A stretch of 64,000 nucleotides of DNA from Hymenobacter fodinae (lineage in GTDB: Bacteria; Bacteroidota; Bacteroidia; Cytophagales; Hymenobacteraceae): NCBI RefSeq assembly GCF_004745825.1, contig NZ_SRLA01000001.1, forward strand, positions 1,054,001-1,118,000. Direction: 5' to 3'. The position numbers and the translations under genes were made by a program. The notes under the pieces were generated by a model. That model saw nothing but the letters and a program-made list of their open reading frames with translations. It searched no databases and was not told the origin of the DNA. Positions 47,046 through 50,941 of the stretch are shown here, piece by piece; position 1 is the stretch's first letter; each line of letters begins with the position of its first letter.

Positions 47046-47234
47046 CTACGCGGTCTGTACGAACACGCGGTTCAATATGCGGCGATACACCGTAGAGAAC
47101 TGCTGGTAGCACCAGGATTTCAGCTCCGACAACTCGGCCGGAACTAGCATTCGTAGAGCTTTGCGCAATTCCTTTTCGAACAAGATCTTGTCGAAGCTCA
47201 CTTTGAGCAGAATGGTTTTGGCGTACTCAAGCAT
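47046..47234 (-). CDS. Small conserved-looking hypothetical protein
   Basis: 62 residues, helical and basic: MLEYAKTILLKVSFDKILF, KELRKALRMLVPAELSELKSW, ending in RRILNRVFVQTA. Small proteins of this pattern recur in Hymenobacter-type genomes as far as I recall, with no assigned function. A strong terminator follows and an AT-rich leader precedes, which supports expression. Confidence 0.65.
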   Translation of the reverse strand: MLEYAKTILLKVSFDKILFEKELRKALRMLVPAELSELKSWCYQQFSTVYRRILNRVFVQTA

Positions 47235-47422: not shown

Positions 47423-47452
47423 AAAAAAGGAACGGTTTTACCGTTCCTTTTT
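47423..47452 (-). terminator. Terminator of the downstream ferritin pair
   Basis: AAAAAAGGAACGG pairs with CCGTTCCTTTTT. A T run follows on the minus strand, about 50 bases after the stop at 47500. Confidence 0.88.
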
Positions 47453-47499: not shown

Positions 47500-48378
47500 C
47501 TAATAGATGAACAGGCTCACCACTTCAGTAGCTGTTAGCCCATCTAAAGGTTCATCAAAGGCCTCGGCTACCTTGGCTAAAATGGCCGCCTGCGAGAGGG
47601 GTGGCTTGGCCACGTTAATCGGCAAATTGTCCACGAACGGAACCAGATTGTTGCCGGCCAGATATTGAGTGAAGCTGTCCTCGCCAGCGTAGGCTTTGGC
47701 TGCTACCGAGCCGGTTGTGGCAATAGGAGCATCACTGGGGCTGACCCAGCTTTTAACAGTTGCACCCCGCTGCCGCCGCATCGTGCGGATGTGTGAGGCA
47801 TGTCGCGCCTCCACCGAGTGCGCCCGCACAGCCGACTCCAGCAAGAAGTTATCAAACTGGATGTATTCTACCTGGCCTTTATACGCGCGTACGCCAGTAT
47901 CTTCCAGTAGCTGAGCTACCCGCAAGAAGGTATCAAAGTTGGTGAACACATCAGGGTATAACGCAGCTTGTGCGCCATTTTTGCTGCCCGTAAAATCAAA
48001 GCGAGGAGTGAGGTCAAGAGTGGCCCCAGCGTTTACGAGTAGGCGGGTAAACAATGCCACGTGTTGCTGCTCGTGGCCCTGAATGGTTTGAATAGCCGCC
48101 TGGTTTTCCGTGGTGCCGAAAAAGCTGAGTGGTTGCTGCAGTGCCTGCGTATAAAACGCGTTTTCGAGCTGTTCTAAGGTCAAGGCTAATTTCAGCACAT
48201 CCTGCACAGTTCGGCTGTCGCGTGCGACTGCGGGCTGGGGCAGCGCTGTCAGTACGGCGGGCAGCGCGGCGGTACCAGCCTGAGCCAGTCGGCGGAGTGC
48301 CGTGCGGCGTGGGCCCGTTAGCGTCAGGCTTTCGGTATCGGTTTCGGCCAAGCGGGCCAGCAGTTTCAGAAAATGCAT
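47500..48378 (-). CDS. Ferritin-like domain protein, type B copy 2
   Basis: 292 residues. Start at ATG 48378, 13 bases after the end of the type A gene. The N-terminus has a twin-arginine-like stretch (GPRRTALRRLAQAG) and a hydrophobic segment, so export by Tat is likely. The four-helix core carries metal-ligand-type residues: LEQLENAFYTQAL, IQGHEQQHVALFTRLL, LLEDTGVRAYKGQ and HSVEARHASHIRTMRR. It belongs to the Ferritin_2 group (plant desiccation-related proteins). Same length as the type B copy 1 at 49307. Confidence 0.82.
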   Translation of the reverse strand: MHFLKLLARLAETDTESLTLTGPRRTALRRLAQAGTAALPAVLTALPQPAVARDSRTVQDVLKLALTLEQLENAFYTQALQQPLSFFGTTENQAAIQTIQGHEQQHVALFTRLLVNAGATLDLTPRFDFTGSKNGAQAALYPDVFTNFDTFLRVAQLLEDTGVRAYKGQVEYIQFDNFLLESAVRAHSVEARHASHIRTMRRQRGATVKSWVSPSDAPIATTGSVAAKAYAGEDSFTQYLAGNNLVPFVDNLPINVAKPPLSQAAILAKVAEAFDEPLDGLTATEVVSLFIY

Positions 48379-48391
48379 CCGGAAGAGCAGC

Positions 48392-49111
48392 TTATATAGT
48401 AGGGAGGGAGGAGGCCACGATAGTAGCGGGCACAAACTTGGCAATCAGCTCAACCACCTCCAGAGGCGTTTTAGCCGTGTCGAGGCCAGCCGCGTCACCA
48501 GAAGCGGTAATTACGTCGGTAGCCGCGAAAGAGCCCGGTTGAGCTTGGTCGCGCACGAAAGCGGCGTGCCGGGCTTCTACTGAAGCAATTTTGGCCAGCA
48601 GGCGCAACGAGGTAACGTCCGTAATAAGCTTGGCAGCCCCATTATAAGCGGCCACGCCCGTGTCCTCCAGCGTGCGCGCGGCAGCATATACTCCCGCCCG
48701 GGTAGTAAGGGTAAAGGATGAGAAATCAAACGTTAGGCTGGTGCCCGCCGAGTCGTAGGCATTGGTGCCTAAGGCATACCGGAAAAACTCCCGGTGAATC
48801 ACTTCATGGTCGCGCAGGTCAACGAAGGCCGCTTTATCTTCAGCCGTGAAGTCAGATGGGAAGGCGTCAACTACTTTCTGGTAAAAGGCCGCCTCTAGCT
48901 GTTCCAAGAGGTAGGCGTAGTTGAGTAACCCATTGTCGCCGCTACCTAGGGTCAGGCTAGGAGTAGAAGAAGTTGGCGTGGGGTCGTTATCATCGTTGCA
49001 GCCAGCCAGTACCAGGGTAGAGGTAGCTACGGTGGCACCTACCACACGAAAAAACGAGCGGCGACGCAGCGTACGTGCCAGGAAAGAATTAGAAAATAGT
49101 GGCTCAGACAT
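48392..49111 (-). CDS. Ferritin-like Tat lipoprotein, type A copy 2
   Basis: 239 residues. Start at ATG 49111. The signal is a Tat lipoprotein signal: RRRSFFRVVGAT, then LVLAGC with Cys38, then an Asp/Asn-rich stretch. The ferritin-like core has YLLEQLEAAFYQKVV, DLRDHEVIHREFFRYAL, TLEDTGVAAYNGA and ASVEARHAAFVRD, so all usual Glu/His ligand positions are present. It should sit on the outer face of the inner membrane or periplasmic side of the outer membrane. It pairs with the type B gene 13 bases downstream. Confidence 0.85.
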   Translation of the reverse strand: MSEPLFSNSFLARTLRRRSFFRVVGATVATSTLVLAGCNDDNDPTPTSSTPSLTLGSGDNGLLNYAYLLEQLEAAFYQKVVDAFPSDFTAEDKAAFVDLRDHEVIHREFFRYALGTNAYDSAGTSLTFDFSSFTLTTRAGVYAAARTLEDTGVAAYNGAAKLITDVTSLRLLAKIASVEARHAAFVRDQAQPGSFAATDVITASGDAAGLDTAKTPLEVVELIAKFVPATIVASSLPTI

Positions 49112-49238
49112 GCGTAAATTACTCAGCGGGCTCATCTTAGGTGCCCGGCAGCGGGCGCCTGATAACAAATGTACTCCGATAAACCGGGATGCACTAAATA
49201 GCAGAGCCCCAAGCCAGGGGAAAGGTTGCGTAAAACGA

Positions 49239-49288
49239 GGAAATGAAAAAAGGGACGACCCATCTAGGTCGTCCCTTTTTTCATTTCC
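49239..49288 (-). terminator. Terminator of the upstream ferritin pair
   Basis: GGAAATGAAAAAAGGGACGACC pairs perfectly with GGTCGTCCCTTTTTTCATTTCC around six bases. It cleanly separates the two A-B gene pairs, so each pair is its own transcription unit. Confidence 0.92.
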
Positions 49289-49306
49289 AGTACGTAGGCT
49301 ACTGGC

Positions 49307-50185
49307 CTAGAATTTTACTACTGAGCGGGCAATGTTGGTTACCGTGGTGCTGTCGAGACCTTCGTCGAAAGCAGCGCTAACATCAGCGGCGCTGTAAGTA
49401 GCACCCAGCATGGTAGTGAGGGCCGTAATGCCGCCTTGGGCAACGTTGTCCTCGGCCGGGAAAGTGGTAGTCGGAACCCCAGCACCGTACACTGCGTCGG
49501 GTACGCCGTTAGCATCCTTATTTACAATCCAGGGCATAATGCTGGTTTGGGCACCTGCCGTGGCACCGCGGCGCATGTAGCGGATGTGGGCCGCGTGGCG
49601 TGCTTCTACGGAGTGAATTTGCAGGGCCACCGTGAGCAGGTTTACCTGGTTGCCACCCACAGTGGGGTTAAGGGTGCGCGGAATGCTAGTGGCCTGACCC
49701 TTATAAGCCCGTACGCCCGTATCCTCGAAGGCCTGAGCCAGAGTCAGGAAGCCAGCGTACGTGGTGAAGGCATTGGCGCCAAAGTCGAAGGTAGGAGCAG
49801 TGGCGGGGCTTACATTGCTACCCAGGGCCGCCGTCAGCAGGTTTACGTGAGCCAATTCATGGGCCCGGATGGTAGTGATGGCCGTGCGAGCATCACCAGT
49901 GAGCGTAGTAGAAAGCGTAGCGGCATTCAGGGCCTGGTTGTAGAAGCTATACTCCAGGCGCTCTAGCAGCAGAGCGTAGTTCAGAATGTCGTTTACCGTG
50001 GCATTGCTGTTATTCTGACCCATAGCTTTGTTGAAAGCCGAGCCAATGGCAATAGGAGCAGCCGCCAGCGCCATCTTTTTGGTCATGTCGCCGAGGGCGG
50101 TGAGAGCACTCCGGCGGTGGGTGAGGCGGTCCATGATTTCAGGATCTACCTTCTCCAGTTCAGAAATGATATTGAACAGATTCAT
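49307..50185 (-). CDS. Ferritin-like domain protein, type B copy 1
   Basis: 292 residues. N-terminal LTHRRSALTALGDMTKKMAL resembles a Tat signal, with a hydrophobic stretch but no lipobox. Core helices: LLLERLEYSFYNQAL, TTIRAHELAHVNLLTAAL, FEDTGVRAYKGQATS and HSVEARHAAHIRYMRRG. The match with the type B copy 2 runs along the whole protein, including the VRAYKGQ and SVEARHA segments. The stop TAG lies in CTAGGCCAGT, the only heptamer copy between 46,936 and 52,046. Confidence 0.85.
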   Translation of the reverse strand: MNLFNIISELEKVDPEIMDRLTHRRSALTALGDMTKKMALAAAPIAIGSAFNKAMGQNNSNATVNDILNYALLLERLEYSFYNQALNAATLSTTLTGDARTAITTIRAHELAHVNLLTAALGSNVSPATAPTFDFGANAFTTYAGFLTLAQAFEDTGVRAYKGQATSIPRTLNPTVGGNQVNLLTVALQIHSVEARHAAHIRYMRRGATAGAQTSIMPWIVNKDANGVPDAVYGAGVPTTTFPAEDNVAQGGITALTTMLGATYSAADVSAAFDEGLDSTTVTNIARSVVKF

Positions 50186-50218
50186 AATGCGGGAAAGTCA
50201 GAAGTGGAAGAAGGAGAG

Positions 50219-50941
50219 TTATTTACCTACGTTATCGCCGTTGATGGTTTCGGTGATAAAGGGCTGGGCCAGTGTCAGCACCTCCGATACCGAACGGCGC
50301 ACATCTAAGCCGTTAGCGTCTACCACGTCGCTGCCCGAGAAACTGCCGGGCGTAATCAGGTCGCGGATATAGGCCGCGTGGCGTGCTTCTACCGACACAA
50401 TCTTGCCAGCAATCAGCAGGTAAGTAGAATTCTGAATCAGAGAACCGGCGCCATTATAAGCCGATACACCCAAGTCTTCGAAGGTACGAGCGGTGCTCAG
50501 TACCGACGTGCGGTCTGAGAAGTTGATATTATCAAACTTCGGAGTGAGCGAGCCGATAATTTGCGTAGGAGCCGCCGCTGTAATAGCTGCCTTGAAGAAG
50601 TCGCGGTGAATGGCTTCGTGCTGCGCAATAGCGGTAAGGGCAGTGCGCTCATCGGTTGTCATTCCGGAGAAAGGCGAGGCTACCACTCGGGCATAGAAAG
50701 CAGCTTCTAGTTGTTCCAGAGCGTAAGCGTAGTTTAGAACACCTACGTCGCCGGAGCCTAAGCTAACAGCACCAGGTTGCGTGCCATTGTTATCGTCATC
50801 GTCATCGCAGCCAGAAAGCAGCAGTGCCGTAGCACCGGCCGTAGCACCAGCGTACATGAAAAAGGAGCGGCGCTTGATTGGCGTGTAAAGCGGCTTGGCG
50901 AATTCCGCGTCGTCTCCACCTGATTTGGTGATGTTAGACAT
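50219..50941 (-). CDS. Ferritin-like Tat lipoprotein, type A copy 1
   Basis: 240 residues, first gene of the upstream pair. Tat lipoprotein signal: IKRRSFFMYAGATAG, then LLLSGC with Cys45, then five or more Asp residues. Core: YALEQLEAAFYARVV, AIAQHEAIHRDFFKAA, TFEDLGVSAYNGAG and VSVEARHAAYIRDL. It is clearly paralogous to the type A copy 2 protein. The metal-binding layout suggests a non-haem di-iron or storage role outside the cytoplasm; no activity is established for this group. Confidence 0.87.
   Translation of the reverse strand: MSNITKSGGDDAEFAKPLYTPIKRRSFFMYAGATAGATALLLSGCDDDDDNNGTQPGAVSLGSGDVGVLNYAYALEQLEAAFYARVVASPFSGMTTDERTALTAIAQHEAIHRDFFKAAITAAAPTQIIGSLTPKFDNINFSDRTSVLSTARTFEDLGVSAYNGAGSLIQNSTYLLIAGKIVSVEARHAAYIRDLITPGSFSGSDVVDANGLDVRRSVSEVLTLAQPFITETINGDNVGK

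Follow-up and report, generated by a model that had tools for sequence, protein, structure and literature searches.

Proteins of the PCC13-62/PF13668 family have been tied to the ability of plants, Deinococcus and tardigrades to withstand drying, and their physiological task is unsettled (PMC11616004). RvFeMP-1, RvFeMP-2 and DRB0118 are phosphatases, whose true substrate and metal were left open by the authors (PMC11616004). Metal-site mutants of RvFeMP-1 abolish the phosphatase activity, and Asp135 is essential in this protein, whereas DRB0118, which is active, has Gly at that position (PMC11616004). RvFeMP-1 forms a dimer via helix 4 and DRB0118 is chiefly dimeric (PMC11616004). Three members have also been named in Thermus (TTP0166, TTP0169 and TTP0170; PMC1274311). 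Here we describe four genes of this family, arranged as two A-B pairs, in a stretch of 64,000 nucleotides from Hymenobacter fodinae (contig NZ_SRLA01000001.1, positions 1,054,001 to 1,118,000; the whole stretch is called the window). A preliminary description of the window, made from the sequence alone, had stated that relatives of this group have no proven activity; the phosphatases named above make this statement outdated.

We tentatively propose, with a probability of about 45%, that A and B are the two partners of a dinuclear-metal system that is exported by twin-arginine translocation (Tat), belongs to the PF13668/ferritin-like metabolite phosphatase family and serves in envelope stress. 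The four open frames stand head to tail on the minus strand (window 47500-50941) in the order A1-B1-terminator-A2-B2, and this order, the ferritin-like nature of the proteins and the repeat between the pairs are as the preliminary description had read them:

50219..50941, minus strand: A1, predicted Tat-type lipoprotein with a ferritin-like domain, 240 residues; ligands E76, E79, E109, H112, E155, E185, H188
49307..50185, minus strand: B1, predicted Tat-type ferritin-like protein without a lipobox, 292 residues; ligands E75, E78, E110, H113, E154, E194, H197
49239..49288, minus strand: terminator between the pairs (B1/A2), a perfect 22-bp stem with a 6-nt loop (inverted-repeat search)
48392..49105, minus strand: A2, predicted Tat-type lipoprotein with a ferritin-like domain, 237 residues; ligands E68, E71, E101, H104, E147, E177, H180
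47500..48378, minus strand: B2, predicted Tat-type ferritin-like protein without a lipobox, 292 residues; ligands E69, E72, E103, H106, E159, E190, H193
47424..47452, minus strand: terminator-like 13-bp inverted repeat 3' of B2 (inverted-repeat search)

A2 was taken from MSEPLF and B2 from MHFLKL, while the list of open reading frames begins both further upstream at TTG. The equal length of the two B proteins, already remarked upon, looks coincidental because called B relatives span about 260 to 350 residues. Pairwise identity is 44% between A1 and A2, 37% between B1 and B2, and 29% within each pair (A1-B1 and A2-B2).

All four proteins matched Pfam Ferritin_2 (PF13668), with E-values of 1.5e-37 (A1), 6.1e-34 (B1), 1.5e-31 (A2) and 1e-28 (B2) and bit scores of 129.3, 117.6, 109.8 and 100.6, respectively, against a curated cut-off of 24.7; matches in an NCBIfam search were all far below cut-off. 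A PDB search with A1 or B1 as a single protein gave no match up to E 1, and profiles were needed to reach their PDB relatives. By alignment, each of the four keeps the complete ligand set E,E / ExxH / E / ExxH, as had been claimed for the Glu/His positions, and the eight-position pattern E,E,E,H,E,G,E,H of the DRB0118 subtype is identical in all four and in DRB0118. In a profile alignment, off which the residue pairs were read by eye, RvFeMP-1 Glu51, Glu90, His93, Glu132, Asp135 and Asp162 (numbering of PMC11616004) correspond to A1 E76, E109, H112, E155, G158 and E185. Sequence alignment places the M1 ligands (Glu, ExxH and an acidic residue on helix 4) in each of the four window proteins; at M2, all four have Gly in place of the Asp135 that marks the RvFeMP-1 subtype, and the compensating Glu76 of DRB0118 (PMC11616004) corresponds to A1 E79. 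Pfam found no C-terminal IgG-like domain in the four proteins, which assigns them to clade 2 and not to clade 1 of PMC11616004. The fold was compared on the predicted models of A1 (mean predicted local distance difference test score, pLDDT, 84.5; helices >90) and B1 (mean 77.0). The top solved-structure match was RvFeMP-1 for both A1 (Z 23.5, root-mean-square deviation (rmsd) 1.9 over 163) and B1 (Z 18.6, rmsd 2.0 over 159), with ferritins next at 16.0 and 14.6, and Foldseek matched A1 to RvFeMP-1 with an E-value of 1.6e-5.

The pairing of A and B is constant. When named genomes were scanned with a profile of B, at least 593 loci were confirmed, of which the best 80 were kept; these span Hymenobacter, Rufibacter, Adhaeribacter, Pontibacter, Pedobacter, Sphingobacterium, Chitinophagaceae, Runella and others. 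A stood directly upstream of B in 80/80 loci, with a median gap of 19.5 bp (-4 to 61 bp; 92 called plus-strand pairs), and three apparent exceptions (L050 with no B, L067 with no A and L047 with no second A) were rejected, as the raw frames show the partner. These loci were reached through B and hence are no test of B occurring alone. A less biased test of the pairing is a sample of 247 genomes of the same class, in which A was present in 16 genomes and B in those same 16, and 22 of the 22 A genes adjoined a B. The profiles for this sample came from Hymenobacter alone and may therefore miss distant members. The count leaves out A-profile matches in G206 and G255, which scored 22-25 bits and covered just the signal region, a piece of an A gene at the end of a contig (G130:C91), the broken B remnant of H. 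fodinae and low-scoring A/B cross-matches. The family was found in all 101 Hymenobacter genomes, that of H. fodinae included, and the member count was even in 89 of them. H. fodinae has six intact members, namely the four of the window and a third A-B pair on another contig (C10:152493-154249) at a different site, beside recX (read from the sequence), which is also the site of a pair in genome G031. The broken B remnant (C12:292834-293190) has one in-frame TAG, and no A-profile match was found on that contig.

All seven ligands were retained in 98/103 A and 96/104 B proteins. Departures affected one partner only in seven pairs (in one case merely Glu to Asp) and both partners in three; among the departing proteins is the B of the third H. 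fodinae pair, with Glu changed to Val on helix 3. Separately, we observed that two subtype-2 (A2-type) A proteins (L043:5171-5908 and A3 of locus L046) have lost most ligands (HTEYEKH pattern) and that their B partners kept theirs.

An A-type match of at least 50% identity was also found in seven alphaproteobacterial plasmid records (Methylobacterium radiotolerans, Mesorhizobium). A and B are directly adjacent in four of these, and in a fifth (NZ_CP090581.1) they lie at opposite ends, about 0.9 kb apart if the record is circular. Other plasmids carried ferritin-like genes in various company: an A-B pair that neighbours umuD and the gene of a Y-family DNA polymerase in Hymenobacter sp. YIM 151858-1 (L128), two ferritin-like genes near spore photoproduct lyase and DNA ligase genes in Granulicella, a lone ferritin-like gene with a tatA/tatE gene directly behind it in Miltoncostaea oceani (L127), and a lone ferritin-like gene that follows the gene of a sigma-70 family factor at a distance of about 0.3 kb in Rhizobium sp. 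Kim5 (L134).

The N-termini point to export of both partners and to different signals in A and B, which lie as follows:

50807..50872, minus strand: A1 twin-arginine to lipobox Cys, residues 24-45 (read in the sequence)
50792..50806, minus strand: A1 predicted lipoprotein export signal, DDDDD right behind the lipobox Cys (signal as in PMC5080379)
48992..49057, minus strand: A2 twin-arginine to lipobox Cys, residues 17-38, then NDDND (read in the sequence)
50117..50185, minus strand: B1 conserved 23-residue segment ahead of the twin arginines, MNLFNIISELEKVDPEIMDRLTH (sequence comparison)
48310..48378, minus strand: B2 23-residue segment, equal in length and diverged in sequence (sequence comparison)

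Both A proteins have RRSFF followed by a lipobox (LLSGC in A1, LVLAGC in A2), whereas B1 starts with RRSAL and B2 with RRTAL and neither has a lipobox; the signals had thus been described correctly. The lipobox pattern fits 0/104 B proteins, and 9/103 A proteins do not fit it. Twin arginines are present in 102/103 A and 103/104 B proteins and the H. fodinae genome has a TatC gene, so that all four proteins are predicted Tat substrates and the extracytoplasmic location proposed earlier gains support at the level of sequence. The Pfam TAT_signal profile gave A1 15.8 bits, under its cut-off of 22.7, and A2, B1 and B2 were without a listed match. In Bacteroidota, the lipoprotein export signal (LES) is a polar or basic residue, then acidic residues, right after the lipobox Cys (PMC5080379). 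Both A1 (CDDDDD) and A2 (CNDDND) carry a predicted signal of this kind, and the passages of PMC5080379 give no LES for Hymenobacter. Compared with other predicted lipoproteins from the same 80 loci, A proteins more often had an acidic residue at +4 (79/94 versus 8/39, p 5e-12, with rows that are not independent) and at least two acidic residues at +3 to +6 (65/94 versus 4/39). A may therefore be exported to the surface, in which case the two partners might finish in separate compartments.

B has a feature of its own ahead of the signal. In 87 of the 104 called B proteins 23 residues precede the twin arginines, and the segment has Asp at -10 in 98/101 and Arg at -4 in 91/101. Its mean pairwise identity over 79 loci (54%) is close to that of the B core (60%), whereas the A n-region reaches 20%. 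The B1 model has a helix at 3-13 with a pLDDT of about 75, and the corresponding part of the A1 model is below 50. When the segment profile was run against the H. fodinae genome, it found only B1, the B of the third pair and one match at E 1.6, and missed B2. That the segment serves in docking is a guess.

Genes for an extracytoplasmic function (ECF) sigma factor and an RskA anti-sigma factor lie beside the pair in 22/80 loci (neighbours clustered by BLAST; two ECF and five RskA proteins were Pfam-checked). They occur in four arrangements: on the same strand downstream in 5 loci, facing in 10, on the same strand upstream in 4 and divergent in 3. Among the 22, 11 genomes were searched further, and the pair-linked RskA was the sole RskA in nine and one of two in the other two. 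Pedobacter differs in that 18 of its loci have, instead, a LytTR regulator gene in divergent orientation together with a histidine kinase gene (one of each Pfam-checked). In the 247-genome sample, RskA was present in 15/16 genomes with A-B versus 52/231 others (Fisher p 1e-8, kinship uncorrected). As RskA is common without A-B and rarely near the pair in this sample, we rejected ECF/RskA as a dedicated regulator. The only RskA gene found in H. fodinae (L143:5976-8110, on C12) is accompanied by an ECF sigma gene and then a haem-NO-binding (HNOB) gene. Near the window genes, the Bacteroidota-type promoter pattern had no match and sigma-70-like promoters matched at about chance level. A paper on H. 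influenzae RpoE2 was set aside, as its passages concern Dps.

We envisage the following course. A and B would both fold in the cytoplasm and exit through Tat; A would be lipidated and probably displayed on the outer-membrane surface, and B would be released into the periplasm or anchored facing it. A DRB0118-type metal site (E,E/ExxH/E/ExxH), kept in at least one partner, would most likely hydrolyse phosphate esters, by analogy with the activity measured for DRB0118, and this hydrolysis would contribute to the tolerance of drying and of envelope stress. The family, the fold (of A1 and B1), the ligand pattern, the constant pairing and the duplication as a unit are demonstrated here, whereas Tat export, surface display, phosphatase chemistry, contact of A with B and the physiological role are inferred. 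Loss of DRB0118 by mutation leaves cells desiccation-sensitive, yet radiation-resistant (PMC1978522, PMC1274311), so that the role in desiccation suggested earlier is plausible.

Several observations weigh against this reading. The Asp135 that is essential in RvFeMP-1 is replaced by Gly, as it also is in the active DRB0118. Nucleotide pools are cytoplasmic and A and B appear to be exported, which fits badly with the cleaning of such pools. The Glu plus two-ExxH ligand set is the classical one of redox diiron and dimanganese proteins. A on the surface and B in the periplasm might never meet, and the Foldseek match of B1 to RvFeMP-1, taken alone, is weak (E 0.059). The measured phosphatase rates are, according to the authors, 1-2 orders under those of several known metabolite phosphatases (PMC11616004). 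With respect to regulation, just one of the 15 A-B genomes with RskA has this gene close to the pair (G121; judged by coordinates), and in H. fodinae it is unlinked to the pair, on another contig. This rarity of the RskA link in an unbiased sample lowers the odds of a fuller version, in which the pair would be a heteromeric, surface-linked two-subunit metalloenzyme and the first heteromeric PCC13-62/FeMP member, the B segment would be a dedicated docking element in the cytoplasm, tying export through Tat to the loading of metal or to the assembly of A with B, and RskA-type ECF stress control would operate in several genera; we regard this combination as distinctly doubtful.

A serious rival, although on balance a somewhat unlikely one, is that the pair uses iron or manganese in the envelope for redox chemistry, as a ferroxidase, peroxidase or catalase would, and that the phosphatase activity of the relatives arises as a side reaction when recombinant protein is loaded with zinc. 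The classical ligand set speaks for it, and Tat export allows the metal to be chosen in the cytoplasm. On a Thermus plasmid two ferritin-like genes stand by a peroxiredoxin-like gene, and the activity of RvFeMP-1 is low and its native metal undetermined (PMC11616004). Nevertheless, the one biochemical study of PF13668 consulted reports a phosphatase activity, which the metal-site mutants of RvFeMP-1 abolish (PMC11616004), and both models lie nearer to RvFeMP-1 than to ferritins, although the fold does not tell the reaction.

The possible difference in compartment raises another alternative, namely that A and B are separate enzymes for the surface and the periplasm that share an operon without contact. 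The lipobox and the surface-export signal in A, neither of which B has, agree with this, but A and B were never apart in the 16 A-B genomes of the 247. Moreover, the three alphaproteobacterial A proteins inspected are without a lipobox, so that both partners would be periplasmic, and they are still paired, and in the seven pairs with one partner off the ligand pattern the other is intact. We therefore consider separate enzymes unlikely and favour two partners of one system, which may be in contact. Metal storage had also been entertained in the preliminary description; storage of iron or another metal in an extracytoplasmic ferritin cage is very improbable: the ferritin-like fold agrees with it but by itself is uninformative about a 24-mer or 12-mer shell, the lipid anchor and the B C-terminal extension would argue against a shell, and so does the dimeric state reported for RvFeMP-1 (through helix 4) and, for the most part, for DRB0118 (PMC11616004).

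Trees of the family tell how the two pairs arose. In a 103-row tree all A proteins grouped with alphaproteobacterial A and one Pseudanabaena protein (Shimodaira-Hasegawa-like approximate likelihood ratio test, SH-aLRT, 97) and all B proteins with alphaproteobacterial and Hymenobacter-plasmid B (SH-aLRT 97). A careful tree of 40 rows gave support of 100/96 for A and weaker support, 80/64, for B; some outgroup rows, DRB0118 included, entered the trees without helix 1. A1 grouped with A2 and B1 with B2. The preliminary description had proposed such a phylogeny and had named A1 with B1 as the outcome that would speak against it; an A1+B1 clade was rejected in the 40-row tree (approximately unbiased test, p-AU 5.4e-6), as was a single clade of all four window proteins (p-AU 9.6e-5). 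An A2-type clade was drawn from nine loci and a B2-type clade from the same nine, which means that the pairs were copied as units, as the earlier idea of a duplicated two-gene unit had it. The site aroC - batD-like - pair - queG - ruvB (gene names read from the sequences, without database search) holds one pair in Rufibacter, Adhaeribacter and Sabulibacter and one to three in Hymenobacter. The four window genes form a tandem array of long standing, kept at one chromosomal site, and not a recent copy. A recent duplication of one pair into redundant copies is suggested by little besides the tandem arrangement and deserves hardly any credence, given copies just 37-44% identical, subtype-2 clades common to nine loci and ligand loss in some subtype-2 copies elsewhere. 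At the same site, a frame of about 62 codons (MLEYAKTILLKVSFDKILFEKELRKALRMLVP...) lies at window 47052-47234 on the minus strand, between queG and B2, and has no Pfam match; elsewhere in Hymenobacter (loci L041 and L047), frames resembling it adjoin queG or the pair.

The family is known and its two-partner design appears undescribed: a search of the open-access literature, which leaves out most subscription papers, found no paper describing an A-B pair. Because two members with Tat signals are encoded together wherever either is found, and in several genera beside a stress sigma factor, the pair offers a genetically simple route to the task, metal and compartment of PF13668 proteins.

Finally, we compared the window proteins with the described members of the family. 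The tardigrade proteins RvFeMP-1 and RvFeMP-2 (PDB 8KCE, 8WAI, 8W9K) belong to PF13668 like the window proteins (PMC11616004), and A1 shares Glu51, Glu90, His93 and Glu132 of RvFeMP-1 in the alignment and has Glu185 opposite its Asp162. They differ by an extra IgG-like domain, by Asp135 at M2 where the window proteins have Gly, and by a eukaryotic signal peptide in place of a Tat signal with lipobox, and no operon pair has been described for them. PCC13-62 of Craterostigma and Rds1 of S. pombe share PF13668, a secretory signal and a link to stress with the window family, while being eukaryotic and having other M2 ligands (compared via the description in PMC11616004 only). DRB0118, itself a phosphatase, resembles the window proteins in the ligand pattern and in having no IgG-like domain, with 28% identity to A1 and 32% to B1 over the matched parts. 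We took DR_RS16050 of D. radiodurans plasmid MP1, whose record carries no old locus tag, as DRB0118 because Glu76, Glu191 and Gly194 correspond to E38, E153 and G156 at a constant offset of 38. In contrast to the pairs, it has no second ferritin-like annotation for company in the 40 kb that were read, and in the 40-row tree, which it entered without helix 1, it fell outside both the A and the B groups. The plasmid pairs of Methylobacterium radiotolerans and Mesorhizobium have the same A-B order, their A shares 50-56% identity with A1 where the two match, and their B carries the DPD..R..RR segment as B does here; they differ in that A has no lipobox (three proteins read) and B is without most of the Bacteroidota insert ahead of the FDEP motif.

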